Origin: an uncultured Anaerococcus sp.
Lineage (GTDB): Bacteria > Bacillota > Clostridia > Tissierellales > Peptoniphilaceae
Assembly (NCBI GenBank): GCA_902465755.1
Contig: CABQOK010000007.1
Coordinates: 1-17,035 of the forward strand
DNA length: 17,035 nt
Direction: 5' to 3'
The notes under the pieces were generated by a model. That model worked only from the letters and a program-made list of their open reading frames with translations, was not told the origin of the DNA and did no database searches. Each line of letters starts with the position of its first letter. The stretch's first letter is position 1. Positions 942-17,035 of the stretch are shown here, in pieces. A program made the translations under genes and the position numbers.

Positions 942-1160
942 GTGCCTGTAACATTATTAAATGAAGGTGAAAAAGCTGAAATTGTCGCCATCAAGGGGAC
1001 AGATTCAATTAGGAAACATTTGAACAATCTTGGTTTTGCGAAGGGCAGAATCATTAGCTTGCAGAAATTTGATGGAGTAAACTATATTTTCGTTATCGAT
1101 GGCAACCGCTTTGCTCTAAGCAAGGATTTGGCTAAACGAATTATGGTTAAGGAGTGTTAA
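942..1160 (+). CDS. feoA: FeoA family protein, first copy
   Basis: This 72-residue protein fits the small SH3-like FeoA family (usual length 70-85), cytoplasmic partners of the FeoB ferrous-iron transporter. The family pattern is visible: a leading L-x-x-G-E-x-A-x-I segment, then a R-K-H-L-x-x-L-G-F-A-x-G turn at about residues 24-36, and a C-terminal strand ending A-L-S-K-D-L-A-K-R-I. The start is GTG, chosen because TTGGAG at 931-936 sits five bases upstream and the family N-terminus begins there. It is the first gene of feoA-feoA-feoB; the next start directly abuts its stop codon. It is more divergent than the second copy. FeoA is thought to modulate FeoB, but its mechanism is not settled, and why two copies are needed is unknown. 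Confidence 0.85.
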   Translation: MPVTLLNEGEKAEIVAIKGTDSIRKHLNNLGFAKGRIISLQKFDGVNYIFVIDGNRFALSKDLAKRIMVKEC

Positions 1161-1388
1161 ATGAATACATTAGATAAGACAGAAATAGGTAAGACTGTCA
1201 AAGTAGTAAAGATTTTAGGAGATTCCCCAACCAAGAGGAGAATCATGGATATGGGTCTTACAAAAAATACAGAAGTTTTTGTAAGAAAGGTAGCTCCCTT
1301 AGGAGATCCTATCCAAGTAAGCTTACGTGGATATGAGCTTACTATTAGAAAAGAAGATGCGAAGAATATAGGGGTTGAAGAAATATGA
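1161..1388 (+). CDS. feoA: FeoA family protein, second copy
   Basis: A 75-residue FeoA protein with the textbook pattern: an early G-K-T-V-K-V-V-K-I strand, the loop K-R-R-I-M-D-M-G-L-T around residues 25-34, then P-L-G-D-P-I-Q-V-S-L-R-G-Y-E-L-T-I-R-K-E-D-A near the C-terminus. That last segment is the strongest FeoA signature. AAGGAG (1149-1154) precedes the ATG, which follows the stop of feoA1 with no gap. Its stop overlaps the feoB start in an ATGA arrangement, implying translational coupling with the transporter. It probably binds the cytoplasmic side of FeoB. It is the more typical of the two FeoA copies here. Confidence 0.9.
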   Translation: MNTLDKTEIGKTVKVVKILGDSPTKRRIMDMGLTKNTEVFVRKVAPLGDPIQVSLRGYELTIRKEDAKNIGVEEI

Positions 1389-3535
1389 CTTACAAAATAG
1401 CATTAGCAGGTAACCCAAACTCTGGAAAAACTACCCTATTTAATGCCTTGACAGGTTCAAACCAAAGAGTTGGTAACTGGCCAGGGGTTACAGTAGATAA
1501 GAAACAAGGAGTTTTGAAGGGCCACAAAGATATAATTATAGAAGACCTTCCTGGCATCTACTCTCTTTCTCCTTACACAATGGAGGAGGTCGTAAGTAGG
1601 GAATATCTTGTAGGTGAAAGACCAGATTTAATTATCAACTTAGTAGATGGCTCAAATATAGTTAGAAACTTATACCTTACAAGTCAACTATTAGAGCTAA
1701 ATATCCCTGTTGTCATCGCTCTTAACATGATGGACATTGTAAGAAGTAGGGGAGATAAGATTGACGTAGACAAGCTTTCAAAGAAGTTAGGCTGTCCTAT
1801 TGTCGAGATAGTTGCCATGAAAGGCCAAGGTGTTGATAAGCTAATTAGTGAGACAGTTAAGCTTAAAGACAGAGATATCAAACCAAATAGCTTGGTTTTC
1901 GACGACGAACTTGAAGAAGTTTTAAGTAAAATAGAAAAAGATTATTCAAACAAATTAGACAAAGAATTATCAAGATATTATGCAATAAAATTGTTTGAAA
2001 ATGACGAAGAAAGCCTAAGCCATCTCAATATCAACTCAAATGATTTGAAGGAAGTTACAAAAATCAGAGAAGACTTCGAAGAAAAGATGGATGATGACGC
2101 AGAAAGTATCATCACTTCCGCAAGATACGAAAATCTCGAAAATTTGTCAACAGCTGTCTTGGTCAAGGCAAAACCAAAATTATCCATAACTGACAGGATA
2201 GATAAGATCGTTACAAGCAGAATTTGGGGACTTCCAATCTTTGCCCTAGTGATGTTCTTAGTTTATTTCATGGCAGTTTATGAGAAAAGTCCAGGAACCT
2301 TAGGAACAGATGCCGTAAATGGTTTCTTTGAAGAAACTCTAACCCCTTGGGTGTCAGGTCTAATGGATCAAGCATCAATCCACCCGGTAATCCACTCCCT
2401 AGTAATAGATGGTATCATTGCAGGTGTGGGAGCTGTACTTGGATTCTTGCCACAAATGATGGTCCTATTTGCCCTCCTAAGCATCCTAGAAGACATTGGA
2501 TATATGGCAAGAGTGGCCTTCATCATGGACAGAATGTTTAGGAGATTTGGCCTATCAGGAAAATCATTTATCCCAGCCATGGTTGCTACAGGATGTGGAG
2601 TTCCAGGAGTTCAAGCATCAAGGACTATCGAATCTGATAGGGACAGAAAGATTACAATAATGACTTCGACCTTTATGCCTTGCTCAGCAAAACTACCAGT
2701 AATAGCATTAATCGTTGGAGCCTTCTTCCCAGAACACCAAGCCCTTGTTTCCTTCTCCTTCTATATGATAGGTATAGCAAGCATAGTAGTATCTGGAATC
2801 ATATTGAAGAAATTCAAAGAGTTACAAGCAGATCCTGCTCCATTTATCATGGAACTACCTCCATACCACGCACCACGTGCTAAGTCAGTGCTTACAGATG
2901 TCTACAACAAGTCAAAGGCTTACGTTAAAAGAGCAGGAACTGTAATATTCCTTTCAACAATTATAATATGGTTCCTATCAAACTTCGACTTTAGTCTTAA
3001 CCTAGTAGAAGCTGAAGCAGAAACATCAATACTAGCAAGATTAGGATCAGCAATTGCCATAATATTTAGACCAATTGGTTTTGATTCATGGCAGGCAACA
3101 GTAGCAACAATCACAGGCTTTGTAGCCAAAGAAAATGTAGTTGCTACAATGGGAGTTGTCCTAGGATTAGGTTCAGAAGTTACAGAAGAAAGCCAAGAAC
3201 TCTTGATGGCCTTCAACCACGCCCTAGCTACTCCAGTAGCTGGATATTCCTTCCTACTTTTCAACATGCTATGCATGCCATGCTTTGCAGCAGTAGGAGC
3301 TATCAAGACAGAAATGGCAGATAACAAATGGACAGCAATTACCATATCCTACCAAATGGGCTATGCTTACCTAGTAAGCTTGATATTCTACAATATTGCA
3401 AACCTAATATTATACAGAATATTCAACATAGGAACAATATTTGGATTTGCTGGACTAGCTTTACTAATCTACCTAATAGCTAGAAAACCATCACAAGAAA
3501 AGAAAAGACTTAACTACGAAAAATCAGTAGCTTAA
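1385..3535 (+). CDS. feoB: Ferrous iron transport protein B (FeoB)
   Basis: This 716-residue protein is the membrane Fe(II) importer FeoB. The N-terminal GTPase domain shows G1 GNPNSGKTT (residues 9-17), the conserved G-V-T-V-D switch region near 35-39, G3 DLPG and G4 NMMD. A helical linker (about 165-270) follows, then a multi-helix membrane domain from about 283. Both Gate motifs carry the expected cysteines: GCGVPG (403-408), CSAKLP (433-438) and CMPC (630-633), plus the conserved AKEN at 581-584. Length suits Gram-positive FeoB proteins, somewhat shorter than the E. coli protein. It overlaps feoA2 by four bases and is probably repressed by iron through the Fur-like box at 820-834. The frame is intact throughout. 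Confidence 0.97.
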   Translation: MTYKIALAGNPNSGKTTLFNALTGSNQRVGNWPGVTVDKKQGVLKGHKDIIIEDLPGIYSLSPYTMEEVVSREYLVGERPDLIINLVDGSNIVRNLYLTSQLLELNIPVVIALNMMDIVRSRGDKIDVDKLSKKLGCPIVEIVAMKGQGVDKLISETVKLKDRDIKPNSLVFDDELEEVLSKIEKDYSNKLDKELSRYYAIKLFENDEESLSHLNINSNDLKEVTKIREDFEEKMDDDAESIITSARYENLENLSTAVLVKAKPKLSITDRIDKIVTSRIWGLPIFALVMFLVYFMAVYEKSPGTLGTDAVNGFFEETLTPWVSGLMDQASIHPVIHSLVIDGIIAGVGAVLGFLPQMMVLFALLSILEDIGYMARVAFIMDRMFRRFGLSGKSFIPAMVATGCGVPGVQASRTIESDRDRKITIMTSTFMPCSAKLPVIALIVGAFFPEHQALVSFSFYMIGIASIVVSGIILKKFKELQADPAPFIMELPPYHAPRAKSVLTDVYNKSKAYVKRAGTVIFLSTIIIWFLSNFDFSLNLVEAEAETSILARLGSAIAIIFRPIGFDSWQATVATITGFVAKENVVATMGVVLGLGSEVTEESQELLMAFNHALATPVAGYSFLLFNMLCMPCFAAVGAIKTEMADNKWTAITISYQMGYAYLVSLIFYNIANLILYRIFNIGTIFGFAGLALLIYLIARKPSQEKKRLNYEKSVA

Positions 3536-3553
3536 AGCTATTAGAAAAGCACA

Positions 3554-3582
3554 TCTCCTCGCAATCATATATTGTGGGGAGA
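3554..3582 (+). other. Hairpin between feoB and the Cys-rich gene
   Basis: TCTCCTCGCAAT (3554-3565) and ATTGTGGGGAGA (3571-3582) form a 12-bp stem with two G-T wobbles around a five-base loop. A purine-rich stretch follows instead of a T-run, so it is not a standard terminator. In the feo transcript it could protect the feoB 3' end or reduce readthrough to the small gene. Confidence 0.55.
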
Positions 3583-3602
3583 GGGAGCTTAAAGGAGATA
3601 AC

Positions 3603-3773
3603 ATGAACATTCAATCAATAATTTTACTAATAATAATCCTCGGCATATGCGCCTATGTGATTTACACAAGATTTATATCAGCAGATGGTCATGCAGGATG
3701 TAAAGATTGCACAGCTTGCAGCTCATCAAATCACAAAAACGATAATCACACTTCTTGTGGTTGCGGTTGCTAG
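3603..3773 (+). CDS. FeoB-associated Cys-rich membrane protein
   Basis: A 56-residue peptide. Residues 4-20 form one hydrophobic membrane helix (S-I-I-L-L-I-I-I-L-G-I core). A short juxtamembrane segment follows, then a Cys/His-rich tail: C33, C36 and C39 in a C-x-x-C-x-x-C pattern, several His, and a terminal S-C-G-C-G-C. This is the layout of the small FeoB-associated Cys-rich family found after feoB in Firmicutes. AAAGGAG at 3591-3597 supports the ATG. The tail probably binds iron or another metal, possibly passing it to or from FeoB, but no function is proven for the family. It lies 67 bases after feoB, behind a hairpin, and is likely cotranscribed. Confidence 0.85.
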   Translation: MNIQSIILLIIILGICAYVIYTRFISADGHAGCKDCTACSSSNHKNDNHTSCGCGC

Positions 3774-3885
3774 AAGTTCTTAAATAAGGACATAACAAGC
3801 ACAAAATAATAAGACCCACTAAGAGGTAATTTCACAAAACTTCAATACTAATTTATAAAGAATGTAATTTTTTTTACAAAAACAC

Positions 3886-3900
3886 TGATAAAGGTTATCA
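3886..3900. promoter_or_regulatory. Fur-like box upstream of flavodoxin
   Basis: TGATAAAGGTTATCA has perfect 6-base inverted arms and matches 12 of 14 defined positions of the 7-1-7 Fur consensus TGATAATNATTATCA. It ends ten bases upstream of the -35 at 3911-3916. Flavodoxin induction under iron limitation is a classic Fur-regulated response, so the location makes sense. It is the stronger of the two boxes in this window. Confidence 0.65.
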
Positions 3901-3910
3901 CTATCATCAA

Positions 3911-3939
3911 TTGAGATGAGGTTAACATAAAAATAATAA
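3911..3939 (+). promoter_or_regulatory. Promoter of flavodoxin and DUF3793 genes
   Basis: TTGAGA (3911-3916), a 17-base spacer and TAATAA (3934-3939). The next strong element is the AAGGAG-type ribosome binding site at 3946-3951, so this would give a very short leader. An upstream promoter starting within the 3870-3900 T-rich region cannot be excluded. Confidence 0.5.
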
Positions 3940-3957
3940 ACAATAAAGGAGAAAATT

Positions 3958-4389
3958 ATGGCAAAAGTAGCAGTAGTATATTGGTCAGGAACAGGTAATA
4001 CAGAAAAGATGGCAGAAGAATTCGTACAAGCAGTAAAGGCAAATGGCAGTGAGGCAGAAATATTTTTCGCAGGAGAGTTCACATCAGATAATATAACAAA
4101 TTTCGATGCCTTCGCTTTTGGATGTCCAGCAATGGGAAATGAACAACTAGAAGATGGTGAGTTCGAGCCAATGTTTGAAGAAGTTGAAGATAAACTTGAT
4201 AACAAGCCAACAGTCCTTTTCGGATCATACGAATGGAATGACGGCCAATGGATGTATGATTGGCAAGAAAGGGCCAAAGATAGTGGAATCAACCTAGCAG
4301 CAGATGGTCTAATCGCCTACGATGACCCAGACGAGGAGGCTCTCGAATCAGTTAGGAATCTCGCCAAAACTCTTCTAGAGAAAATCTAA
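3958..4389 (+). CDS. Flavodoxin, short-chain
   Basis: A 143-residue FMN-binding electron carrier, cytoplasmic. The phosphate-binding loop S-G-T-G-N-T sits at residues 10-15, right after the first strand V-A-V-V-Y-W. The FMN isoalloxazine loops are also visible: G-C-P-A-M-G-N-E-Q-L-E-D (55-66) and F-G-S-Y-E-W-N-D-G-Q-W-M (88-99). Length and motifs match short-chain flavodoxins of clostridia. AAAGGAG precedes the ATG by six bases. In anaerobes flavodoxin replaces ferredoxin when iron is scarce. A near-consensus Fur-like box (3886-3900) and the adjacent feo operon support that role here. The DUF3793 gene starts on the last base of this stop codon, so the two form one operon. Confidence 0.95.
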   Translation: MAKVAVVYWSGTGNTEKMAEEFVQAVKANGSEAEIFFAGEFTSDNITNFDAFAFGCPAMGNEQLEDGEFEPMFEEVEDKLDNKPTVLFGSYEWNDGQWMYDWQERAKDSGINLAADGLIAYDDPDEEALESVRNLAKTLLEKI

Positions 4390-4940
4390 TGCAGGAAGAA
4401 TTCCTAGTCTTCCACGCATCTCCAGTTTTGTGCGGGATAAAGGCAGCTAATCTCTTCCAGATAAGATCAACTGACCTAAATTACGTAAGAAGAGTAATCA
4501 AATCTTGGGAAGAGGCCATTAAGACTTGCAAATCCTGCGATCTTAAGTTCAAACTTATTGCCAAAAAGGAAAAAGGGTTCCTAGTACTAGCATACAGAAA
4601 TAAGAAACTTGAGACCATCCTAGAAGATGAAGAAACTAAAACTTTTATAAAAAACTTAGGCTATGATACTGAAAGCCTTGCCAAATGCCTAAATAGGCTA
4701 GCAATAAGACTAAAAGTCGACGACTTCCCTCACGAGATAGGACTTTTTCTAGGCTACCCTCTAGACGACGTAAAGGCCTTTATCAAACACGAGGGCAAAA
4801 ACTTCATCCTCAACGGAACATGGAAAGTCTACTACGATGCAGAAAGAAAAAGACAAATCTTCAAAGCCTACAACGAAAGCAAAGAGAGATGCAGGATGCT
4901 AATAAAAAACGGAGGCCACATTCATGAACTAGTTGGATAA
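4389..4940 (+). CDS. DUF3793 family protein
   Basis: A 183-residue cytoplasmic protein of a family without known function. Typical features are S-P-V-L-C-G-I-K-A-A-N-L-F near the N-terminus (11-23), F-P-H-E-I-G-L-F-L-G-Y-P at 113-124 followed by D-D-V-K-A-F-I, N-G-T-W-K-V-Y at 142-148, and a basic helical tail. Cysteines occur at 15, in the K-T-C-K-S-C-D segment, and further on. The start ATG shares one base with the flavodoxin stop, so expression is coupled. From memory, DUF3793 genes often sit beside flavodoxin and iron-transport genes in clostridia, which suggests a link to iron limitation or electron transfer. No catalytic motif is evident. A terminator follows at about 4975-5007. Confidence 0.85.
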   Translation: MQEEFLVFHASPVLCGIKAANLFQIRSTDLNYVRRVIKSWEEAIKTCKSCDLKFKLIAKKEKGFLVLAYRNKKLETILEDEETKTFIKNLGYDTESLAKCLNRLAIRLKVDDFPHEIGLFLGYPLDDVKAFIKHEGKNFILNGTWKVYYDAERKRQIFKAYNESKERCRMLIKNGGHIHELVG

Positions 4941-5007: not shown

Positions 5008-5388
5008 CCTAAAAATAAAAAATTCTAGGAATTAAAGTATAGATATCCTAAACAGTCACCCTACAGCCCGAGACTTCTCCACAAGGTCGAAGTAAGGGAA
5101 AGGGAATTGTAGTATTCACATAAAAACAAATCACGCTATTGTCCTTATATCTAATGGGAATGTATTCCGTACCTTATCCCGACCGAAGTGGAGGAATCTC
5201 ATAAATTATATAAAAACCACTATGAATCGAAGCGGAAGATTTCAAATCCTATACCCCTTATGTCGAGCGTAGTCGAGACATCTCATAATTAAAAATCACA
5301 CTTCTATAGCTACAAGCATCCAGAATAAAAGAATGAGAATTGCTTAATATAATAATATTAATAGAATAATTCAATAATTTTGTAGAAA
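5008..5388. repeat. Gene-free repeat stretch before the toxin locus
   Basis: No gene seen. About 5068-5160 is a partial relative of block B, with CTCCACAAGGTCGAAGTAAG and CCTTATATCTAATGGG both shared with blocks at 342-602 and 6017-6251. Copies of the GTCGA/ACATCTC motif lie at 5178-5205 and 5262-5288, and a degenerate relative near 5225-5245. From about 5330 the sequence is AT-rich and leads into the toxin promoter. Confidence 0.6.
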
Positions 5389-5389
5389 A

Positions 5390-5417
5390 TTAAAAACTAT
5401 ATAAAATGAAGTATAAT
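5390..5417 (+). promoter_or_regulatory. Promoter of the Fst-like toxin
   Basis: A perfect -10 TATAAT (5412-5417) with a weak -35 TTAAAA (5390-5395) at a 16-base spacing. This predicts a start near 5424 and a leader of about 40 bases that contains the hairpin over the ribosome binding site. Confidence 0.55.
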
Positions 5418-5433
5418 ATATATGTTATCATCA

Positions 5434-5458
5434 CTTCCATTAGCATGGAAGGAGGTGA
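5434..5458 (+). promoter_or_regulatory. Hairpin overlapping the toxin ribosome binding site
   Basis: CTTCCAT (5434-5440) and ATGGAAG (5445-5451) form a perfect 7-bp hairpin with loop TAGC. The right arm runs into the very strong ribosome binding site AAGGAGGTGA (5449-5458), hiding its first bases. Par loci of the Fst family use a 5' stem-loop to restrain toxin translation, so this fits a type I toxin leader. Confidence 0.6.
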
Positions 5459-5462
5459 AATC

Positions 5463-5558
5463 GTGCGAGAATTCTACAACATCATAGTTACTATCACAGT
5501 AGATATAGTTGGTCACTTAATCTGCAAATGGCTAGATAGTATACTCGATGATAACTAG
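5463..5558 (+). CDS. Putative Fst/par-family type I toxin peptide
   Basis: A 31-residue peptide starting at GTG. It has a charged start (M-R-E-F-Y-N), a hydrophobic helix (about residues 6-20) with the phrase V-G-H-L-I-C-K-W-L-D, and a polar, acidic end (S-I-L-D-D-N). This resembles Fst-type membrane toxins such as that of pAD1 in size, polarity and W-L-D/L-D motif. The assignment rests mostly on locus design: a strong but hairpin-masked ribosome binding site (5449-5458), a symmetric terminator directly after the stop (5563-5591), and a repeat of codons 4-13 placed in a convergent antisense unit (5616-5646). Such toxins damage the membrane when the antisense RNA is lost. It could instead be another small membrane peptide with antisense control. 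The internal Pro of classic Fst is absent. Confidence 0.7.
   Translation: MREFYNIIVTITVDIVGHLICKWLDSILDDN
5472..5501 (+). repeat. Direct repeat, toxin-side copy
   Basis: TTCTACAACATCATAGTTAC begins this 30-base segment inside the toxin coding sequence. It matches 5616-5646 with one extra base and about three substitutions. In Fst/par loci, such repeats give the toxin mRNA and convergent antisense RNA their complementarity outside the terminator. Confidence 0.75.
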
Positions 5559-5560
5559 CA

Positions 5561-5632
5561 TAAAAAAGACGAGCCCTACGCTCGTCTTTTTATTTGGTCG
5601 AAACCATGCATTTTCTTCTACAACAATCATGG
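5561..5632 (-). ncRNA. Putative antisense antitoxin RNA (RNA II-like)
   Basis: On the minus strand a perfect TATAAT (plus-strand 5638-5643) predicts a transcript starting at about 5630-5634 and ending at the shared terminator, about 70 bases long. That is close to the RNA II of pAD1 par. Its 5' part carries the complement of TTCTACAACA, which also occurs in the toxin mRNA (5472-5481), and its 3' part is complementary to the toxin mRNA terminator. AACCATG (5602-5608) and CATGGTT (5628-5634) could present the TTCTACAACA complement in a hairpin loop. Transcription is inferred, not shown. Confidence 0.55.
5563..5591. terminator. Symmetric bidirectional terminator
   Basis: A perfect 12-bp stem, AAAAAGACGAGC (5563-5574) with GCTCGTCTTTTT (5580-5591), around the loop CCTAC. 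The A-run on one arm and T-run on the other allow termination on either strand. It lies five bases past the toxin stop. A shared terminator between convergent sense and antisense RNAs is a hallmark of Fst/par loci. Confidence 0.9.
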
Positions 5633-5646
5633 TTACTATTATAGTA
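5616..5646 (-). repeat. Direct repeat, antisense-side copy
   Basis: This is the second copy of the toxin repeat (5472-5501), one base longer: TTCTACAACAATCATGGTTA and onward. It overlaps the antisense -10 and predicted start, so only its left half (about 5616-5632) would be transcribed. It has no open frame of its own, so its conservation is best explained by pairing with toxin mRNA. Confidence 0.75.
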
Positions 5647-5668
5647 CTTCAAACCATAAGAAATTCAA
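5638..5668 (-). promoter_or_regulatory. Promoter of the antisense RNA
   Basis: Read on the minus strand: TTGAAT (5668-5663), a 19-base spacer and a perfect TATAAT (5643-5638). The spacer is longer than ideal. The -10 is otherwise convincing and correctly placed to yield a short antisense RNA ending at 5563. Confidence 0.5.
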
Positions 5669-6016
5669 TATTCTAAAAATATATCTATATAACTCAACTA
5701 TTCAAAACCTTTATCTATTTTCAAACTTATAGCTCTATCGAATAAATTGATTTAATTAGTCATAAAGTACTTATATTAGATCCTTCAAATTCAACAAAGC
5801 GTAGCTACAGGAAATTTCCAGTCTATGACGATATGTAAATATCAAAGAACAACTTATCTAAATAAATTCCCAATACCCGAGATAAGGGAATTGTTATAAT
5901 CAAATAAAAGTAAATCACATCCTTATCCTTATGGCGAGCGAAATCGAGACATCTCAATGCTGTTTCTATTATATAAAGAGAAGCTAATCGAAATGGAGAC
6001 ATCTAGTAAAAAAATT
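5669..6016. other. Gene-free stretch: AT-rich spacer then repeat fragments
   Basis: No gene seen on either strand. About 5669-5810 is AT-rich sequence with no recognised element. From 5818 to 5920 it resembles the middle of block B (a GTAAATATC-x-AAGAA-type phrase and AATACCCGAG). GTCGA/ACATCTC motif copies follow at 5932-5956 and 5986-6008. Confidence 0.55.
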
Positions 6017-6251
6017 TCCACCTCGACAGAGCTTCCACGAGGAAGCGACGAGAGGTCTCCAGTCTACGATGACATGTAAATATCGAAGAATAAATTATCT
6101 AAGCAACTATTCCAATACCCGAGACATCTCCACAAGGTCGAAATAAGGGAAAACTGGTGCTACAAATAACAGTAAGGGAAATAGTTCCCTTATATCTAAT
6201 GGGCCTGGCCACAATGAATGATAGAGAATTGATGGCAGCCCTTAATCGAGG
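6017..6251. repeat. Repeat block B, copy 2
   Basis: The second copy of the block at 342-602, somewhat shorter. The start (TCCACCTCGACAGAGCTTCC), the GGTCGAAATAAGGGAAA element and the 58-base end ATATCTAATGGGCCTGGCCA through CTTAATCGAGG are nearly identical to copy 1. Here it runs directly into block A copy 2, unlike the left copy, where block A comes first. Confidence 0.75.
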
Positions 6252-6346
6252 GAGCCCTCGTCATGGGCCACTATTTTGCAAAGCAAAATAGTGCAGTATC
6301 CTTTGTTAAGAAATAACAAAGGATAAAAGAACGATGACTATCGTTC
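6250..6346. repeat. Repeat block A, copy 2 (hairpin cluster)
   Basis: The second copy of the block at 211-306. It includes hairpins CGAGG/CCTCG (6247-6260), an 11-bp stem with an AAA loop (6269-6293), ATCCTTTGTTA/TAACAAAGGAT (6298-6324) and a perfect GAACGAT/ATCGTTC (6329-6346). One stem pair is C-G here and T-G in copy 1, and the palindrome loops differ, so structure is kept while sequence drifts. Confidence 0.75.
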
Positions 6347-6700
6347 AAAGTTAATAAGATAAAGGTCAAATGTTCTTGACCTGAATCCGCAAACTGACAC
6401 CGAAGGTGGCATCTCGAGCTTGTCGAGAGATCTATTCAATTTACCTACCGTCGAGCGGAGCGAAGCGAAGCGAGATATCTCATAGGGGCTTTAACTTCCC
6501 TTATGTCGATCAAAGCCTTAATGTCTCAATTCTTTCCTTATATAGCCCGTCAACACATCTCAATTTTTACCAATTTCAACTATTGTCCCAAAATAAGCAA
6601 AAACCCCAACATTTTATAACATAAACACAAACATTATGAAACATTTTTTAGATATATTGGGTTTTTTAAAAATATATATAAAATTCTTCAAAAACTCTTG
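6347..6700. other. Gene-free stretch: repeat motif copies, then AT-rich DNA
   Basis: No convincing gene. GTCGA-type motif copies are at 6394-6430 (including the hairpin TCTCGA/TCGAGA, 6412-6428) and 6450-6487, the latter with an expanded GGAGCGAAGCGAAGCG core. From about 6560 the sequence is AT-rich and leads into the adhesin promoter. The 72-codon open frame at 6406-6624 lies in the repeats and has no ribosome binding site. Confidence 0.55.
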
Positions 6701-6855: not shown

Positions 6856-9800
6856 ATGAACAAGAGAGCCAGAGAATTTATCGTAAAGCTATTTTCACTA
6901 ATAATAGCTATAACCATGTCGATACCTACCAATGTATTCGCCTCATCCGGCACAAAAAGGCCGAAAGAAATGCCTACTATCATAAGAATTGCCGATAGTG
7001 GTGGAGGGGAAGATACATATATTGAAGAAACGAGCGAAGACACCTACATAGAAGACAGTGGGGAAGTCTACAACGAAGATGTATTAGAAAGCGCACCAGC
7101 TGAGACTACAGAAGTCATAGAAGAAGCTCCACAAGAAGAAGCTCCTACCATAGCTGAGGAAGACCCTAGTAACTACATACTTAGCCAAAAGGCAAGGCTC
7201 AATGATAATCATGATGGAATAATCTATGATATCAAGTTAGCCAAGAAGGAAAAATCTTACCATAATCCTAATAACAAGCTAAGCCTAAGCCTAATGCTAA
7301 ACCCAAACCAAGCCCTAAAGGACATCAAGCTTACTAAAGTTGTAATCGATGGTAAGGAAGAGAAAAGAGAAGATAAGTCAAACAAGCAAGACGAGCTTCA
7401 CACACTAAATCTTAGTACACCAACTTTTGAAAACGAGATCACCTACACTGTAGAAGCTCCAATTGACAAGAAAGCAATCGATACAAATAAGCTCTACTCA
7501 ATGGATCTATCACTAGACATAGGTCAATTCAACTTAATTCTTCAAAGAATTTCCTACAAGTTCGTAGAATATGAAAAAGAAGATAAGAGTAAAGAGCTAA
7601 AGCTTACCCACATCAAGGAATCAGAAGATGCCCTAAGATCTATCTCCTACAAGAAGGACGATGGTGACGTGGATAAGGTAATCTACACTGATTACATCAT
7701 CTCCAAGGACAAAGGCGATGAAGAATCCAGAGTAAATGAGAAAAACAAAATCAACTATGCAATTAATCTAGAAAATCTTAAAAAAGAAGACACAGAAATC
7801 TCTCTTGACTACTACAAGGCAGATGATAAGGGATTCAATATACAGAAAGAATTCTCCACAAAAGTACCTTACCAAGAAAAGCTCGACCTTGATATCCCTG
7901 CTTCATATATCCTAAAACTTACCGTTACAAGCAAGACTGATAAGAATAATACCAAAATCGAAAGCCACAAGATAAATGGCAGAGAAGTCAAAAGCCCACG
8001 CTTTGTAAAGGAAGAAGAAAAATCCTCAGACGATGACGAAGAAGCTGCGAAAAAGGATGAAGAGGAAAAGAAAGCTGCTGAAGAAAAGGCTAAAGCAGAG
8101 GAAGCAAAAAAAGCCGAGGAAGCCAAGAAGGCAGAAGAAGCAAGAAAAGCCGAAGAAGCTTCTGCAGAAGAGAAAGCCTCCGAAGAAAAATCTCCAAGCG
8201 AGAAAGAAACCAAGGAATCTAAAGAAGAAACTAATGATAATCTTAAGGCAGAAAAGGAAGCTGCTAAGAAAGAAGCTAATAAGAAAGATGATCTTCTAAG
8301 AAACTTAAAGGAAGACTCTCCTACGAAAGAAGAAGAAAACAAAGCCAAAACCGAAGTCAAAGAAGACTCCAATCTATCCAAGGCAGACGCCGAACTAAAG
8401 GCCGCCCTCGCTGATAAAACTAAGGGAATAGAAGATATCCAAAATCTTCTAACAAGCCTAGGAGAAAAATACAAACTCACAAGAGAAGACCAAGCAAAAC
8501 TAATGACAGCAAACGACGCTGCCATCAAGGCTCTTGTAGAAAAAGACAGGAAAGAGAACTTTAGGACACTAAATTTAGCTGTATCTAATTCATGGGGCGA
8601 CAAAAAGTTCAACTTGAAAGCAACTATCCAGGTAAAGGCAACAGATAAGCTTCCTATACCAGAGAACCACTACTTTGATGTAAAGGTTGGTCCATATCTA
8701 AAAAAAGACGCTGATCAAGAGATAAACGACCTCTATCACGATGGCAAACTAATAGCAACTGGCAAATATATAGAAGAGGGCGACAACCACTACATTAGAT
8801 ATACTTATGTAGACAAAGTTACAGAAAACATGGATTTAGATATAGATCAAATCCTTGCCTTCGACACAGCTAATATAGGATATGCTAGCTCTGTCAACAT
8901 AGATATCAAGGTTGCACCGAAAGGTAATTCTGTCCAATCTATGCCAAGGATAACTGTAAGAAGAAACGATTCTTCACCAGTTGATTCAGGATACACTATT
9001 GTAGACCAAGGTGAAAGTCAATCAGGTACCTACCCTTACCAACTAAATTGGAGAACACTTTCTCAAAAACTAAAGGATAAGAATGGAAACTCTATTGATA
9101 AGATAGCTGAAGCAGATAAGGCAAAACTAACAGGGGCTTATGTAGAATGGGACATAGAGGTAGATACAGATAAGCTAATAGACACAAATAATAAGCTTGA
9201 TTTTGAAAAGTTGAACCTAACTGTCTTCGGTTCAGCCAATCAAGGTCTAAAGAATTTTAGATTCAAGGCATCAAAAGATAAAAAAGACTTAGATTCTACA
9301 ACAGATGACTATATTCTTTCAAGAAATATGGACGAGATTCTAAGCCAAGACACACAAATCAGTAAATCAGATCTTGGAGACAAATTATATATCAAGGTCA
9401 AGGCCCTAATAGATCCTGACCAAGTTCACGAAACTTATAATATAGGTTTTAGGATTAACCCTGACAAAAACTATATAGACAATCTCTTAACAGAGTACAA
9501 AGATAGATTTGACAGACTGCCTACTCCTATCAAATGGCTAAAGGGAGTAGATGATGCAGAAAGATTTGCAAAAGTTCCATTCAACCTAGTGGAAACAAAT
9601 ATTCCTGCAACCTTCTTTGGTCTAAATGACAGATTTACTAACGAGAGATTCTACTATGACAACACCAGAACTATAGTTGCAGATAGAAAATCTGATACAA
9701 GAGCTGACTGGTACGCCCTAGATCTTCTAAGACGTGGCGAGAGCCAAGACCCAGCCTTGGACAACCCTACCTTTGATACAAATAGCGTTCAAGAAGATCA

Positions 9801-12800
9801 AACTATCAAACCAAGAAAAGTTTACTTTGTACCACTAAAAGATGGTGGTTATAGGAGAACTACCCAAGCCCAAGACGTTATATTACCTAACGGTCAGTAC
9901 TACCCTGGCACCTTAGTCTCCTACGAATATATAAACGAAAAAGGTAAAAGAAACGACACCTACAACTTTAGGACACAACTAGAAGAGAAGAAAAAATATA
10001 ACGTAGATGAAGCCAATGATACAGAAGGTGGTAGTGTAAATCTATTTACAGAAAGGGTACCAGACCAAGCCTTGGTCAATGGATACCTAGCCTACGTTGA
10101 AAATCCATATCCAGTAATGCGTATCAACAAAAACTTCGATATGGTATCATGTTTCAACGATCGTATCAACGCTCCTGTATATGACGGATCCAAAGGAGTC
10201 TTCCTAGATATTCACGAAGACGTTTCAGGTGACTACCTTCTAAATAGACTTAATGAGTCCATAGGTAACAAATCTGGTGAATATAGCTTAAAATATCTTT
10301 TAACAAAGAATGTTAAATACAAAAATGAAGTTTACCTAAACGACGGTACCAAGACTCAGGGCCAAGCCATGGAAGAGCTTATGAAGAAAATTTACTTCTA
10401 TGGTGAAGAAGTCAAAAAAGAATACTATGAAGAAAATAATAATCACGAGATGCACAGGATGATAGAAGCATCCATGTACCAAAGGGTAATCCACCACTTC
10501 ACAGATGGTAAAGCTTTATCAAAAGATTATTTTGACGTTCCTTCAGACAACAACGTAGATGACTGGAAGGTAGAACACACCCTCCAAGGTAATCGTAAGC
10601 CTTTTCCACTACCAGGCTGGGAAGATTCCTTTGAAGGATCAGATGAAAAGAGAAAAACAAACGACGGTCTAAGAAGTCTAAAAGACAACGAAACAAGGAT
10701 TAGAAACTACCCACCAGTCCAATCTACCCAATATGCGATGGCAACAAGGCTTTATAACAAGGTTATAGCATCTTATAAAGATGGTAATGACTGGGACGAT
10801 GACAAGGCTAATTCAGTTAAGCTTGTATTCTACTCCCACACAGACACTGGAAAATGGCAAGAGCTAATCGCAGGTCGTGTCATGGATCCAATAGAAATTG
10901 ATAAATATAATAAGGCTGGCGAAAAGCTTGCTGGAGCTGAATTTAGATTTACCAATATCGATACAGGTGAAAGCAAAACTTGGACATCAACAGATGATGA
11001 CACAGTGAATAAACTCTACCTAAGACCTGGTAAATACAAAGTTCAAGAAATAAAGACTCCAAAAGTTGGAGGATACGAAAAAATCCAAGACTTCGATATT
11101 GAAGTAATTAGAAAAGAAATCCATCCAGACGACGGTCCATACAGGGCTAAGAAACTACCAAAAATCCATGTAAATGATGGATTTGAAACAGATGTAAAAA
11201 TAGATCAGGAAACTGTTCCAAAAGCAGCTGATGGTAAAACCTCTCTTGTAGAAATAAAAAAAGATGAGACCAACAATATCAAAGTCAAGGTTACAAATAT
11301 AGAAGACAACCTCGGTAAGCTTGAATTTGTCAAGAGAAATAAGTTTGTCAAACTTAATGGAGCAAAATTTAGACTAAGAAAAATAAACGCAAAAGATCTA
11401 AATGATGCTAAAAATAAATTCAAAACTCCAGATACTCTAACCTATGACAAAAAATACGATAAGGAATCTGCGGGTTCATATGGTGAGTTCAAATTCGACC
11501 AAATCCCAGCTGGTTTCTATGTATTAGAAGAAACAAAAGTACCAGAAGGCTACGAAAAAGCTTCACTCTACCTACTTCAAGCAGAGGAGAAAAAAGATAT
11601 TTCTGGCAAGATAATAGATGTAGAAGTAAGCTTTGTAGACGCAGATCTCGATACTGAGAAGGCCACAAGAGATGGAAAAGAAATCGACCTTCCTATAATC
11701 ATGAACGAGACCAAACAGACTGAGATCAAGTTTAGGAAGGTAAGAACCGAAAACCTAGATACTACAGAAGAACACCTGGGTTTAGGCGATGCTAAGTTTA
11801 GACTAATGTCTCTTGGCCTAATAGATGGGGACTTCTATCTAGAAGAAGACTACACTGACCACACAACCCCAACAGCAAGTACTGAAGATAAAATCGACGG
11901 TCAACAAGCCAAGGGTGGCGGTTACATTACATTCAAAGGCCTAAAACCAGGAACCTACCTCCTCCAAGAGCTAGAAGCTCCAAAAGGCTATAAGCAATCC
12001 ACACTTTACGGTTGGAAGCTTGTAGTAAGTGAAGTCAAAGAAGATGACGAAAAAGCAGGAAAGAAAAAAGGCGACCTAGAATATAAACTATACGAAGTCC
12101 CAAAAGAATCAGACCTTCAAAAACCAAATCTTACAGAGGTGCCATTAGCTTCCATAATAAATGGAAAGGATAGAGTTAAGGCCTTCCAAATAGGCAATGA
12201 CTCAAGAAAGATAGACGTACCTTTCAGTAAGTACAAGGGAGAAATCGTAACTGATGAAACTGGTAAAACAGAAGTAAAAACGACAGAACTTGGGGGACAA
12301 CTCAAAGGTAAGAACGGTGAGCCAGTAAGCTTCAATATATATAGAGCCGACTACTACGGAGCTATAATAGAAGCTAAGGATAAAGATGGAAACTATATTC
12401 CTTACAACAAGGAGCCAATCATCCAAGATGAAAAAGGAATCTTCCACCTTGAAAACCTAGAATTTGGTGGCTACTATATCCTAAGAGAAACAAACCCACC
12501 AGCTGCCTACAAGAAGGCTAATGATATCGTCCTAAAGGTAGAGGCAGAAGCCATTGCCAGCAGAGGAGAAATGAAACTAATCGTTAGAGACCCTAACACC
12601 AACGCCAAAACCGACCTCCACTCAGTATTTAAGGGAGTTGTCGACTTTGAAGAAAAGGCGCAATTAGGTAAATTCTCCATCAAAAAGGTTGGTAATGCTA
12701 TTGGCCACAAGGATAAAGACGGAAATCCTATAAGAGTTGGTCTAAGACGTGCTTACTTCAGACTCTATACAGCAAATGAAAAATACGAGATAGAAACAAA

Positions 12801-15800
12801 CGAAGCAGGCTACGCGAAAGAATACATCCAAAAGGTAACTCCTGGTGTGCCAATTACCAAGGATGATGGCAAGGGTGGTCAAACTGGAAAGAGCCCAGAA
12901 GAGATCGAAGCCGAAGCTCCTAACCAAGGTATAGTAACCTTCGACCAACTAAAACCAGGCTACTACGTCCTAGAAGAATACAGGGGACCAGCAGGTTACG
13001 AAAAAGATCCAGGCAAATGGTATATCCGTGTGGAAAAAGACGGAACAGTCAAGAAATACAGGGATAACCCAGCTACAAACAAAAACCCAAGGACATCTGA
13101 CTACTCAACTCAAAGTGTAAGATACCAAACCTTTGGCCTCGATAGAATCGAACCAATAGGCCTAGGAACTCTAATGAAATCAGTAAGCGGCCTAGAAATA
13201 TCTGATGAAAACACACCACAAAGTGTTGGAGCACCAATAACTGGTTGGCAAAATGTTGACCCTGCAAAGTCCGATGAGGAGAAAGTCTACACTGATAATA
13301 CACAAGGTAGAGTTGAATCCAAAATTATTTCTATAAATAAAGATGACGGAACTAAGGCTTATAGACAACAAATCCTTATTACTCCAAATAAAAAATCACA
13401 ACAATTCTTGGAATTGGAAAGATTTGACGGAACAGCAACTTTCAATTCTATAAAGGTATTAAGTGCAAAAGAAGTTGGAAAAGGCTCAACACTTGAACAA
13501 ATTAAGGGTACACCTAAATCTATCCCATACAAAGTGGGCCCATACGATAAAGATAATAATAATATTATGATAGCTAGATTTTCCACTAATGACGCTATAG
13601 AGAATCCTGTTTTAATAGAAGTAGAAGTTCCTTATACTAGTGGTGAAAGAATCGGTCTTATAGCGGGCTACTATCTTGACGGCGTAGGTCAAAAACGAAG
13701 AGCAAGTACCTATGCAAAAGGGTATGACAATGAAGATGCTATAAACAAAGAAACAACTTATAGTGTTACAATAGATAAAAATATAGTAAATGGTAGCGTA
13801 ACTGCTGATAAGTCCGAAAATCTAAAAGAAGGTGACACAGTCAACCTAACAGTTAAACCAAATGACGGATATATACTAAAGACCCTACTAGTAAACAATG
13901 AAGACAAGGCAGATGATGTTAATAATGGCAATTACCAACTTACAATGCCAGCAGCAGATGTAACAGTAAGTGCTGAATTTAGCGAAATCCCAGAACCTTC
14001 ACCAAACTCTTATACTATTACTACTATGCCAACAACTGGTGGTAAGATTAGCGTAAGTCCAAGTGGTAAAGTGGAAGCAGGAAAGAAAGTAACTGTTACA
14101 GTCACCCCAGACGACGGCAAAAAGCTAGATCAATTAAATATAAATGTCGAAAATGTTACTAAAGATGGAGATACTTACTCCTTCGATATGCCAGCACACG
14201 ACGTGACAATTTCTGCAAGCTTTGTAAATAAGACTATTGTCCCAACTGGTGATATGAATGTTAAGGCAAAATTCATCTACTCTAATGAAGAAAACGGCAT
14301 CGACACAAGCAAGAAACCACCTCAAGGATCTGCAGGAACCATTAGACTAGAAGTAAATAATAAACTTGGAGATCAAGACGATTGGCAGATAGTAGAAGGA
14401 AGTAAGACTAATGCTCCTTACGCCGGAACTGTTGATTTCAAGAACCTTGATGCTACAAGAGAATATAAACTTGTATATAGTAGAGATAGTGAAATAGCAG
14501 GTGGCTGGGGATCAGAAGTCAGAACAGAAATCCCAATAGACTTTAGTAAAGCAGGAAAGGACAAAACTGTAGTAGTAAATATCTCTAACGGTAATCTAAC
14601 AGAGATCTTTAACAAGGACGAGTCAGGATTTAGGATTCCTCTAAGAATAACCAAGGTAAACGAAAACAAGGCCGCCCTTACAGGAAGTAGATTTAGAGCT
14701 CGTAAGATTGTAAATGGAGATAGGACTCTTTATAAAGATGAGCTAGACGACAAAGGCAAAAAGACTGGAAGAATAATTCCAGAAGGCGAAGCTAACGAAA
14801 ACCTAAAATATGCCAAAGAAAAGTTCGACGCTACATCAGAAGCTACGGGTGAGCCAGGAGATAACTACTTCAGAGAACTAAGTCCTGGTATCTATGAACT
14901 AACCGAGATCGAAGCACCAGATGGAACTTACAAGCTACCAAAAGACAAAAACGGCAAGCCAATGAAATGGTACTTCAAGGTCTTTGTCTATGCGGGCAAG
15001 GAACCTAGTGATGCTGACTACATGGGAATCACCTTTGACTTCACTCATCAATTTACATCTAGCGATGATTTCAATATGGATGTAATAACTCCAGCTGAGA
15101 AGAATGATTTATTATTAAGAACAATCGAAGGTCTAGCATCTTCTAATGAGAAATTCGGTAAATATATCGAAGTAATCGAGGATGATGGTCGTTCCAAACC
15201 AGCCAGACCAGACGCTCCATACAAGGGAATCAACGATGCCCAAGTTACAAACTACAAGAATAGAACAAGCCTAAGCTTCTTCAAGAAAGATATTGAATCA
15301 TACCAAAACATAGCTGGTGCATCTTTCAGCTTGAAGAAAGTTAAGACTGAAATTAAAGAGAAACTTGTAGATGGAAAATTCGAAAAAGTTGAAAGAGTAA
15401 TAACTGACGAAAACAACAAGCCTGTATTAGATGACTCTGTCAGCAAGGAAGAGGGTAAAAGAGTTGAGCCATTTGACGAGGAAAAAGGATTCGCCATAGC
15501 CCAATCTGAGCTTAACCTCGGTGTAGAGTTTACTAATATCGAAGCAGGAACCTATATCCTAGAGGAGACAAAGCCTGCCGAGGGATATGCTCCAACTGAT
15601 TCCTTCCTCACAATCAAGTTCACTGAAGCAAAAGATGGTTCATGGACAGAGATTGTCAAAGGATACGAGAAAGGCAAAGATGGCAAGTATGTCGAAATGA
15701 CAGATAATAAGTTCTTCCAAACAAATAATGAAGGAAAACTTACAAGTATAACCAACGACAAGAACTACATCGACTTCAAATTCCAAAAGATCGAAGGTCT

Positions 15801-17035
15801 AAAAGATAAAGAAGGAAATAATATCCCAGTAGAAAACGCCGACTTTAGACTAACCCAAGTTGATGAGAATGGAAATAAGATTGAGGGCGGATACGATATG
15901 CCTATCTACTCTTATGGTGGTAACTCTGAGTTCGTATTTAAAAACCTTACAGTTGGACGCTACAAGCTCCAAGAGACAAGGGTTATAGATAGATTCGAAA
16001 AGCCAGACCCATGGTTCTTCAATGTAGTTCAAGATACAGATACTCACAAATTGAGAATTGAATTTGAAAAAACCAATGGAAAACTTGACGAATCAATTGG
16101 ATTTACGAAAGAGGTTGACGGCAGCCTCACAGACATCAAGATCAGAAACTACACCAAAGCTAACTTCTCCTTTATAAAATATAAAAACGAGACTGATGAA
16201 AAAACTAAGGAAAAACTTCCACTAAAGGACGCCTACTTCAGACTCAAAAAAGTTAGATATTCAATGGATGAGGATACCAAAACCTACGAATACTACGGAG
16301 AAGGCAAAGACGCAGTTCTAAAGAAATACACCAACGGCAAGAAGGTTACAGAATACAAGCCTGATGGTACGGTAGAAAAATACACCTACGATGGAAAAGT
16401 GATAGATAGTACTGATAAAGAAAACTACAAACCAGACTTTATCACAAACGCCACAGGTAAGTACAGTTCCCTACGTCGTTCCCAAAGAAATGGTAGCGTA
16501 GACTTCCAAAACTTAGGCGAAGGAATCTACCAGCTAGAAGAAGTTGGAATACCAGAAGGCTACCAATCAAATAACAATCAAACAAAGTGGATATTTGAAG
16601 TCAAAAAGACAGATGATGGCCTAAAGGTAGAACATAATGTAGATACAGAAAAGACCTACTTCGAAAAATATGACAATAAATATTACAAGGACTTTTACGA
16701 GAACTACTACAAGAAAGCCTACTTAGATAAAACTCAAAATCCAAATATCAAACCAGAGGCTGAGGGTAGCAAGTATTCTTATAACATTACCAATATCAAA
16801 TCCACAACCGACCTCAAATGGAAGAAGATCGGATCAGAGGTTAAGAGTGATGTAATAGAGAAATACACCAAGTTCGTCCTACTAAAGACATCAGACAACC
16901 CAGATGACATTCCAGATGTCATTGACCCTGATAATATTGACTCTGATACTAAAGAAAAAATCGATTATGCCATAAGAGGTCAATCAAACTATCCACCATA
17001 CTTGGTAGAAAGTACAGATGGTACGTTTGAAATCA
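6856..17035 (+). CDS. Giant secreted adhesin with thioester and Cna-B domains (partial, 3' end outside)
   Basis: The frame is open from ATG 6856 (AAGGAG at 6845-6850) to the window edge: at least 3393 residues. Order: signal peptide (1-29, K-R-A-R start, V-F-A cleavage site); acidic linker; N-terminal region (about 105-385); K/E/A-rich helix-forming stretch (386-545); unassigned region (about 560-1075); divergent thioester domain (about 1080-1342); Cna-B-like domains at about 1346-1481, 1488-1617, 1623-1781, 1786-1930 and 1937-2060; unassigned 2061-2295; two InlB-B-like repeats (2302-2375, 2386-2456); further Cna-B-like domains at about 2594-2700, 2804-2920, 2971-3060, 3102-3250 and one starting at 3319. 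Cna-B units show G-A-x-F-R-L and Y-x-L-x-E-E motifs. Likely a wall-anchored, host-binding fibrous protein; the sorting signal is not seen. Confidence 0.9.
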   Translation, partial: MNKRAREFIVKLFSLIIAITMSIPTNVFASSGTKRPKEMPTIIRIADSGGGEDTYIEETSEDTYIEDSGEVYNEDVLESAPAETTEVIEEAPQEEAPTIAEEDPSNYILSQKARLNDNHDGIIYDIKLAKKEKSYHNPNNKLSLSLMLNPNQALKDIKLTKVVIDGKEEKREDKSNKQDELHTLNLSTPTFENEITYTVEAPIDKKAIDTNKLYSMDLSLDIGQFNLILQRISYKFVEYEKEDKSKELKLTHIKESEDALRSISYKKDDGDVDKVIYTDYIISKDKGDEESRVNEKNKINYAINLENLKKEDTEISLDYYKADDKGFNIQKEFSTKVPYQEKLDLDIPASYILKLTVTSKTDKNNTKIESHKINGREVKSPRFVKEEEKSSDDDEEAAKKDEEEKKAAEEKAKAEEAKKAEEAKKAEEARKAEEASAEEKASEEKSPSEKETKESKEETNDNLKAEKEAAKKEANKKDDLLRNLKEDSPTKEEENKAKTEVKEDSNLSKADAELKAALADKTKGIEDIQNLLTSLGEKYKLTREDQAKLMTANDAAIKALVEKDRKENFRTLNLAVSNSWGDKKFNLKATIQVKATDKLPIPENHYFDVKVGPYLKKDADQEINDLYHDGKLIATGKYIEEGDNHYIRYTYVDKVTENMDLDIDQILAFDTANIGYASSVNIDIKVAPKGNSVQSMPRITVRRNDSSPVDSGYTIVDQGESQSGTYPYQLNWRTLSQKLKDKNGNSIDKIAEADKAKLTGAYVEWDIEVDTDKLIDTNNKLDFEKLNLTVFGSANQGLKNFRFKASKDKKDLDSTTDDYILSRNMDEILSQDTQISKSDLGDKLYIKVKALIDPDQVHETYNIGFRINPDKNYIDNLLTEYKDRFDRLPTPIKWLKGVDDAERFAKVPFNLVETNIPATFFGLNDRFTNERFYYDNTRTIVADRKSDTRADWYALDLLRRGESQDPALDNPTFDTNSVQEDQTIKPRKVYFVPLKDGGYRRTTQAQDVILPNGQYYPGTLVSYEYINEKGKRNDTYNFRTQLEEKKKYNVDEANDTEGGSVNLFTERVPDQALVNGYLAYVENPYPVMRINKNFDMVSCFNDRINAPVYDGSKGVFLDIHEDVSGDYLLNRLNESIGNKSGEYSLKYLLTKNVKYKNEVYLNDGTKTQGQAMEELMKKIYFYGEEVKKEYYEENNNHEMHRMIEASMYQRVIHHFTDGKALSKDYFDVPSDNNVDDWKVEHTLQGNRKPFPLPGWEDSFEGSDEKRKTNDGLRSLKDNETRIRNYPPVQSTQYAMATRLYNKVIASYKDGNDWDDDKANSVKLVFYSHTDTGKWQELIAGRVMDPIEIDKYNKAGEKLAGAEFRFTNIDTGESKTWTSTDDDTVNKLYLRPGKYKVQEIKTPKVGGYEKIQDFDIEVIRKEIHPDDGPYRAKKLPKIHVNDGFETDVKIDQETVPKAADGKTSLVEIKKDETNNIKVKVTNIEDNLGKLEFVKRNKFVKLNGAKFRLRKINAKDLNDAKNKFKTPDTLTYDKKYDKESAGSYGEFKFDQIPAGFYVLEETKVPEGYEKASLYLLQAEEKKDISGKIIDVEVSFVDADLDTEKATRDGKEIDLPIIMNETKQTEIKFRKVRTENLDTTEEHLGLGDAKFRLMSLGLIDGDFYLEEDYTDHTTPTASTEDKIDGQQAKGGGYITFKGLKPGTYLLQELEAPKGYKQSTLYGWKLVVSEVKEDDEKAGKKKGDLEYKLYEVPKESDLQKPNLTEVPLASIINGKDRVKAFQIGNDSRKIDVPFSKYKGEIVTDETGKTEVKTTELGGQLKGKNGEPVSFNIYRADYYGAIIEAKDKDGNYIPYNKEPIIQDEKGIFHLENLEFGGYYILRETNPPAAYKKANDIVLKVEAEAIASRGEMKLIVRDPNTNAKTDLHSVFKGVVDFEEKAQLGKFSIKKVGNAIGHKDKDGNPIRVGLRRAYFRLYTANEKYEIETNEAGYAKEYIQKVTPGVPITKDDGKGGQTGKSPEEIEAEAPNQGIVTFDQLKPGYYVLEEYRGPAGYEKDPGKWYIRVEKDGTVKKYRDNPATNKNPRTSDYSTQSVRYQTFGLDRIEPIGLGTLMKSVSGLEISDENTPQSVGAPITGWQNVDPAKSDEEKVYTDNTQGRVESKIISINKDDGTKAYRQQILITPNKKSQQFLELERFDGTATFNSIKVLSAKEVGKGSTLEQIKGTPKSIPYKVGPYDKDNNNIMIARFSTNDAIENPVLIEVEVPYTSGERIGLIAGYYLDGVGQKRRASTYAKGYDNEDAINKETTYSVTIDKNIVNGSVTADKSENLKEGDTVNLTVKPNDGYILKTLLVNNEDKADDVNNGNYQLTMPAADVTVSAEFSEIPEPSPNSYTITTMPTTGGKISVSPSGKVEAGKKVTVTVTPDDGKKLDQLNINVENVTKDGDTYSFDMPAHDVTISASFVNKTIVPTGDMNVKAKFIYSNEENGIDTSKKPPQGSAGTIRLEVNNKLGDQDDWQIVEGSKTNAPYAGTVDFKNLDATREYKLVYSRDSEIAGGWGSEVRTEIPIDFSKAGKDKTVVVNISNGNLTEIFNKDESGFRIPLRITKVNENKAALTGSRFRARKIVNGDRTLYKDELDDKGKKTGRIIPEGEANENLKYAKEKFDATSEATGEPGDNYFRELSPGIYELTEIEAPDGTYKLPKDKNGKPMKWYFKVFVYAGKEPSDADYMGITFDFTHQFTSSDDFNMDVITPAEKNDLLLRTIEGLASSNEKFGKYIEVIEDDGRSKPARPDAPYKGINDAQVTNYKNRTSLSFFKKDIESYQNIAGASFSLKKVKTEIKEKLVDGKFEKVERVITDENNKPVLDDSVSKEEGKRVEPFDEEKGFAIAQSELNLGVEFTNIEAGTYILEETKPAEGYAPTDSFLTIKFTEAKDGSWTEIVKGYEKGKDGKYVEMTDNKFFQTNNEGKLTSITNDKNYIDFKFQKIEGLKDKEGNNIPVENADFRLTQVDENGNKIEGGYDMPIYSYGGNSEFVFKNLTVGRYKLQETRVIDRFEKPDPWFFNVVQDTDTHKLRIEFEKTNGKLDESIGFTKEVDGSLTDIKIRNYTKANFSFIKYKNETDEKTKEKLPLKDAYFRLKKVRYSMDEDTKTYEYYGEGKDAVLKKYTNGKKVTEYKPDGTVEKYTYDGKVIDSTDKENYKPDFITNATGKYSSLRRSQRNGSVDFQNLGEGIYQLEEVGIPEGYQSNNNQTKWIFEVKKTDDGLKVEHNVDTEKTYFEKYDNKYYKDFYENYYKKAYLDKTQNPNIKPEAEGSKYSYNITNIKSTTDLKWKKIGSEVKSDVIEKYTKFVLLKTSDNPDDIPDVIDPDNIDSDTKEKIDYAIRGQSNYPPYLVESTDGTFEI
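8011..8490 (+). other. K/E/A-rich helical segment of the adhesin
   Basis: Residues 386-545 of the giant protein are dominated by Lys, Glu and Ala. The core (417-435) repeats A-E-E-A-K-K with a six-residue period about four times. This is typical of a long single helix or coiled coil, a spacer that may hold the N-terminal region away from the rest. On the opposite strand it produces a spurious 247-codon frame rich in Ser, Ala and Leu. Confidence 0.7.
10081..10881 (+). other. Divergent thioester domain (TED) in the adhesin
   Basis: Residues about 1076-1342. Hallmarks: S-C-F-N-D (Cys1099), matching the C-F/L-N start of bacterial adhesin thioester domains; Y-Q-R-V-I-H-H-F-T-D-G (Gln1209), matching the family T-Q-x-A-x-W-x-x-T-D block; and a closing strand V-K-L-V-F-Y with W-Q-E-L-I (about 1322-1338), like the usual end of the domain. 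The Cys and Gln would form the internal thioester that bonds covalently to host proteins. T-Q-x-A is replaced by Y-Q-R-V, so reactivity is uncertain. Cys1099 is the only cysteine I found in 3393 residues. Confidence 0.65.
13759..14223 (+). other. Two InlB-B-like repeats in the adhesin
   Basis: Residues 2302-2375 and 2386-2456 each follow the pattern Y-x-I/V-T, then G-x-V/I, then a G-D/K-x-V-x-L/V-T-V-x-P-x-D-G segment and M-P-A-x-D-V-T-V/I-S-A-x-F at the end. This is the divergent InlB B-repeat type of small beta domain seen in surface proteins. The two copies are clearly related but not identical, so the duplication is old. Confidence 0.75.

Follow-up and report, generated by a model that had tools for sequence, protein, structure and literature searches.

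A predicted class I-like thioester domain inside the head of a giant Anaerococcus surface protein

Known thioester adhesins and the giant protein of this locus

Thioester domains (TEDs) of class I share a fold, a cysteine motif (C-Phi-zeta), a C-terminal Phi-Q-zeta-Phi-Phi motif and a central helix motif with a Gln; a Cna-B type domain comes next, and the domains themselves mostly lie near the N-terminus. PMC4450167 and PMC6194298 place the bond-forming Gln in a C-terminal beta strand and show the helix Gln to be dispensable. PMC4450167 also describes the helix motif, TQxx-Phi-W, as conserved in most but not all TEDs, with a Gln that does not form the bond, and its survey finds TEDs 'almost always' N-terminal. 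Class II TEDs are marked by a seven-stranded beta-sandwich between alpha3 and strand P. In the Mobiluncus mulieris TIE adhesin (PMC10619420), likewise a giant single chain, a predicted TED (Cys529-Gln712) lies within the extended N-terminal part that precedes the stalk; that TED was overlaid on the class II SaTIE, and the accessible portion of the paper describes no MSCRAMM-like pair. TEDs beyond Pfam have already been found via AlphaFold (PMC9210967). Adhesins of the DLL-type MSCRAMM group are marked by tandem IgG-like N2-N3 domains in a closed arrangement with a latch.

Here we describe a giant SpaA/Cna-B surface protein encoded on the forward strand at 6856..17034 of the 17,035-nucleotide stretch of DNA analysed (the window), of which 3,393 aa could be read, the frame still being open at the window's 3' end. 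Pfam matches on the whole protein are mainly SpaA (Cna-B type) domains plus two InlB B-repeat-like domains, with no match in residues 1-1345 (given as two pieces) up to E 10. The first SpaA stalk domain, residues 1346-1417 (10891..11106, +; PF17802), is the best of nine such stretches in the protein. A charged spacer rich in Glu, Lys and Ala (40, 37 and 30 of 176 residues, respectively) occupies residues 385-560 (8008..8535, +), and within its DNA, positions 8092-8159 and 8257-8288 consist of short repeats in tandem.

A protein search with residues 560-1345, using the best 120 of 213 proteins, returned relatives at 50-82% identity, all of them covering the query fully except P0100 (55%). The closest among the matches listed reach 81-82%, for example A. 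marasmi P0006 (4,881 aa), and 112 of the 120 are 4,095-5,273 aa long. Because the named relatives include A. marasmi, A. hydrogenalis and A. vaginalis, we assign the window protein to Anaerococcus or a near relative; anaerobes of this family are known from human skin and vagina. TIE proteins combine a TED with isopeptide (Cna-B/SpaA) domains and a sortase anchor. Such a layout may apply here, in view of the SpaA domains of the window protein and of LPxTG-like C-terminal ends, mostly YPxTG or FPxTG, in 141 of 154 family proteins; the window protein is counted among the other 13, its own end being cut off by the window. In P0006, which reaches the sorting signal, residues 3932-4041 near the C-terminus form a Big_8 (MSCRAMM N2-type) domain, so that this protein may carry two adhesive modules.

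Fold and class of the domain before the stalk

The earlier note had placed a candidate thioester domain at 10081..10881. By its modelled fold, a TED does lie there, with an extent nearer residues 1071-1345 (10066..10890, +). Sequence searches returned no TED: PF08341 was not matched in the window protein even at E 10, nor was any NCBIfam TED; a PDB sequence search with the domain gave nothing up to E 10, and none of ten diverged family members matched PF08341, a few showing weak matches to unrelated Pfam families. We therefore turned to the fold. Comparison of predicted structures with known TEDs, which the note had proposed as a check, recovered a class I-like TED fold from two models, a weak one of the domain only (pLDDT 61.9) and one of the longer head built with 38 sequences (pLDDT 81.9). 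The structural matches include class I TEDs (Cpa-TED1/TED2, SfbI, CpTIE and PnTIE; PDB 4c0z, 2xic, 5a0l, 5a0g and 5a0n) at 10-18% sequence identity. When Foldseek was used by itself, the only TED it matched to the small model was 5a0n, weakly (E 0.009), and the 50 matches it listed for the head model include no TED.

On the modelled fold, the domain is thus a TED, although not a member of PF08341. In the head model, helix 729-746 is separated from strand 762-768 by only about 15 residues, which on this model argues for class I. Class II TED structures are absent among the 50 structural matches listed, although this alone does not rule out class II. Like class I TEDs, the domain combines the fold with C-Phi-zeta, a C-terminal Phi-Q-zeta-Phi-Phi, a divergent central helix motif with Gln and a following Cna-B type domain. 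It differs from them in its low identity (10-18%) and its place outside PF08341, in a Ser before the Cys and a His for the helix-motif Trp, in its length (about 275 residues versus 175-214 in solved single class I domains), in a stretch of about 70 residues that separates the model's second long helix from its third and in its internal position. The suggestion of a new subtype accordingly survives in part: the domain falls outside Pfam's TED family and the motif Trp is usually replaced by His (13 of 22 diverged members, with Trp in two), whereas the fold is class I-like.

Taking together the fold match, the invariance of a Cys and a Gln and the conserved internal position, we consider it very probable that residues 1071-1345 are a class I-like TED with a Cys1099-Gln1335 thioester, sitting at the inner end of a stalk-borne head that would combine docking with covalent capture.

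The cysteine and its predicted glutamine partner

Cys1099 (10150..10152, +), the predicted thioester Cys, had been singled out as the sole cysteine of the protein and hence as probably functional, and over the 3,393 aa read it is indeed the only one. It is retained in 121/121 homologous segments (the window protein and the 120 listed relatives), in 152/152 aligned domains of at least 200 aa (window protein included; 154 proteins were searched and two dropped for an aligned part below 200 aa) and in 22/22 diverged members, that is, the window protein and 21 others picked for divergence, at 16-83% identity to it. Conservation in all three sets supports the functional significance claimed for this residue. 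In 91 of the 152 proteins the TED Cys has no companion; the remaining 61 hold 77 further Cys, 36 of them in the first 59 residues, so that other Cys amount to 77 per 684,215 residues. The conservation of Cys1099 is far above chance. The set was clustered at 90% identity, so that related proteins are still counted separately. The surrounding motif, S-C-F-N, satisfies C-Phi-zeta, with Ser rather than Y/F/L at the preceding position of [YFL]C-Phi-zeta; one of these three residues does occur there in 10 of the 22 diverged members.

Across these 22 members, only Cys1099, Asn1101 and Gln1335 are invariant in the TED part. Gln1335 (10858..10860, +) is additionally kept in 152/152 closer proteins, and the diverged member L044 reveals its equivalent once a longer piece of sequence is aligned. 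It lies in W-Q-E-L-I at residues 1334-1338, which satisfies the C-terminal motif Phi-Q-zeta-Phi-Phi, and it matches the end register of solved TEDs: the structural alignments end with residue 275 of 5a0g on model position 784, 268 of 5a0l on 783 and 255 of 5a0n on 784. If the last eight or so positions are ungapped, Gln267, Gln261 and Gln247 of these structures (numbered as in PMC4450167) all fall on model position 776, which is Gln1335.

The earlier note had paired Cys1099 with Gln1209 (10480..10482, +), reading Y-Q-R-V as a variant second motif with the partner Gln and hence as the mark of a possible new TED subtype. The residue is real and conserved (121/121 close segments, 152/152 aligned domains and 18/22 diverged members), which is what such a bond would call for. 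It sits, however, in helix 642-658 of the head model, and four diverged members (L044, L068, L069 and L071) replace it by R, K, E or S while keeping both Cys1099 and Gln1335. The strand position of the published bond-forming Gln and the dispensability of the helix Gln (PMC4450167 and PMC6194298) also speak against this pairing, which we regard as highly improbable. Y-Q-R-V is better read as part of Y-Q-R-V-I-H, a divergent form of the helix motif TQxx-Phi-W given in PMC4450167; His1213 occupies the Trp position, and Trp itself is present in two distant relatives, L042 and L043. On alignment and model, Gln1335 is predicted to be the better thioester partner.

Alternatively, the TED fold may lack a thioester and now serve simply as a spacer or for non-covalent binding. 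This would fit the apparent occurrence of dead copies, since N-terminal TED-like domains of genomes G079 and G075 have Ser for the Cys. Yet neither the Cys nor Gln1335 varies as identity over the remainder of the domain drops to 16%, in proteins that are otherwise nearly free of Cys, and we find this explanation quite unlikely beside a predicted Cys1099-Gln1335 bond. The N-terminal domains in question (L049/L056 in G079 and L055/L058 in G075) match PF08341 and, by eye, keep a TQLAIWN helix motif. In G079 the same chain also bears an internal TED with Cys and Gln, which is missing in G075.

Head architecture, distribution and proposed capture

Upstream of the TED, the head begins with a tandem pair of beta domains, residues 574-924 (8575..9627, +), that is MSCRAMM N2-N3-like by fold. 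A third, mostly beta region follows, residues 925-1070 (9628..10065, +), as judged from the secondary structure predicted at positions 366-511 of the head model. Two tandem beta domains are the likeness to the N2-N3 modules of FnBPA, ClfA, SdrD and SdrG; the arrangement of the domains is different, superposition of the whole pair being poor (rmsd about 26), the head has no Big_8 match in Pfam up to E 10, and a TED comes after it. Homology between the head and the protein family's own C-terminal Big_8 region was also considered and dropped, the profile comparison (probability 2-5%) being too weak to claim it.

About 1,070 residues precede the TED, as had been noted, and the TED stands directly before the first Cna-B domain, the best SpaA/Cna-B match starting at residue 1346. 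Among 152 proteins, the TED Cys lies at residues 188-1163 (median 1005.5), below 400 in one. That adhesin TEDs usually sit at the N-terminal tip agrees with the survey in PMC4450167, but internal precedents exist in Cpa-TED2 and the Mobiluncus Cys529-Gln712 domain. A second TED within the N-terminal 1,070 residues was rejected: there is no second Cys, and each of the 154 proteins has one domain above 30 bits with the TED profile, which would miss a Cys-less TED far from the profile.

The TED profile matched 22/249 genomes of the order, in 8/92 genera that all belong to one family; three of these matches (G079, G125 and G126) are partial. The idea of a phylum-wide domain was dropped, as the profile matched 1/398 genomes across the phylum, that one being the nearest genome itself. 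With the head minus the TED as query, 62/249 genomes matched, many over the first beta domain only. Where the head match was longer but the TED profile gave nothing, one locus was inspected in each of six genomes (G012, G025, G064, G068, G088 and G128), and in all six a diverged domain with CxN and a C-terminal Q motif follows the head; G075, which carries part of the head, lacks a domain of this kind. At the loci inspected, the head is thus usually accompanied by the TED, and sequence comparison there makes an internal TED the norm for this family and not a peculiarity of a single gene. Protein searches with far relatives as queries gave two proteins in one case and 33 in another. A PF08341 search gave seven matches in 150 genomes of the order, none in the genus of the nearest genome, and 0/14 in control genomes.

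How such a head might act can be outlined. Sortase would fix the chain at its C-terminal sorting signal, and the Cna-B domains would form a long stalk carrying the head, with the TED as the inner end behind the two N2-N3-like domains and the third beta region. The side chains of Cys1099 and Gln1335 would form an internal thioester. The front beta domains would most likely dock a target protein non-covalently and present it to the thioester, which could react with an amine of the target, e.g. of a Lys, to leave a permanent isopeptide bond; bond formation, docking, covalent capture and a target are what we infer. We tentatively propose, as a possibility, a two-step covalent head, retained as one unit by several genera of the family to which Anaerococcus belongs. 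In it, MSCRAMM-like docking would stand in series with a thioester 'harpoon' on a single chain, with reversible recognition both choosing the target and gating the buried thioester. A thioester that links bacterium to bacterium (biofilm, co-aggregation) instead of bacterium to host is a serious alternative, albeit the less likely one. In Bacillus subtilis, an adhesin with a class II TED has a role in conjugative mating (PMC8092201), whereas the upstream fold here is like that of host-fibrinogen binders, though a fold reveals no ligand.

A TED regularly found behind a docking-type module offers a test case for whether reversible binding by front domains steers or switches on the covalent step, and TEDs, here invisible to Pfam, would extend to the Anaerococcus family of anaerobes. 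In the literature searched we found no account of this TED family or of an MSCRAMM-like pair followed by a TED; the 54 sequences of PMC4450167 may include a Peptoniphilus TED, as that genus is named once there, outside the main text.

Several loci vary. In A. vaginalis PH9 (L008/L021) the gene is interrupted, the frame changing just before the TED, and in G022 (same coordinates as L018, A. vaginimassiliensis) the head match falls in two pieces with a stop. Many genomes hold another giant frame, often above 4,000 aa, that matches the first head domain only (e.g. G001:C2:1714167-1714442). Upstream of the giant gene, the window encodes FeoB (1385-3535), a flavodoxin (3958-4389) and a 183-aa protein with no NCBIfam match (4389-4940); two small frames before FeoB (within 942-4940) resemble FeoA in position and look. 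An Rfam search gave nothing at gathering scores. Diverged repeats of 50-75 nt (64-97% identity) are common to the intergenic stretches 205-603 and 5060-6363, and bases 4-672 contain additional copies of 31-58 nt.
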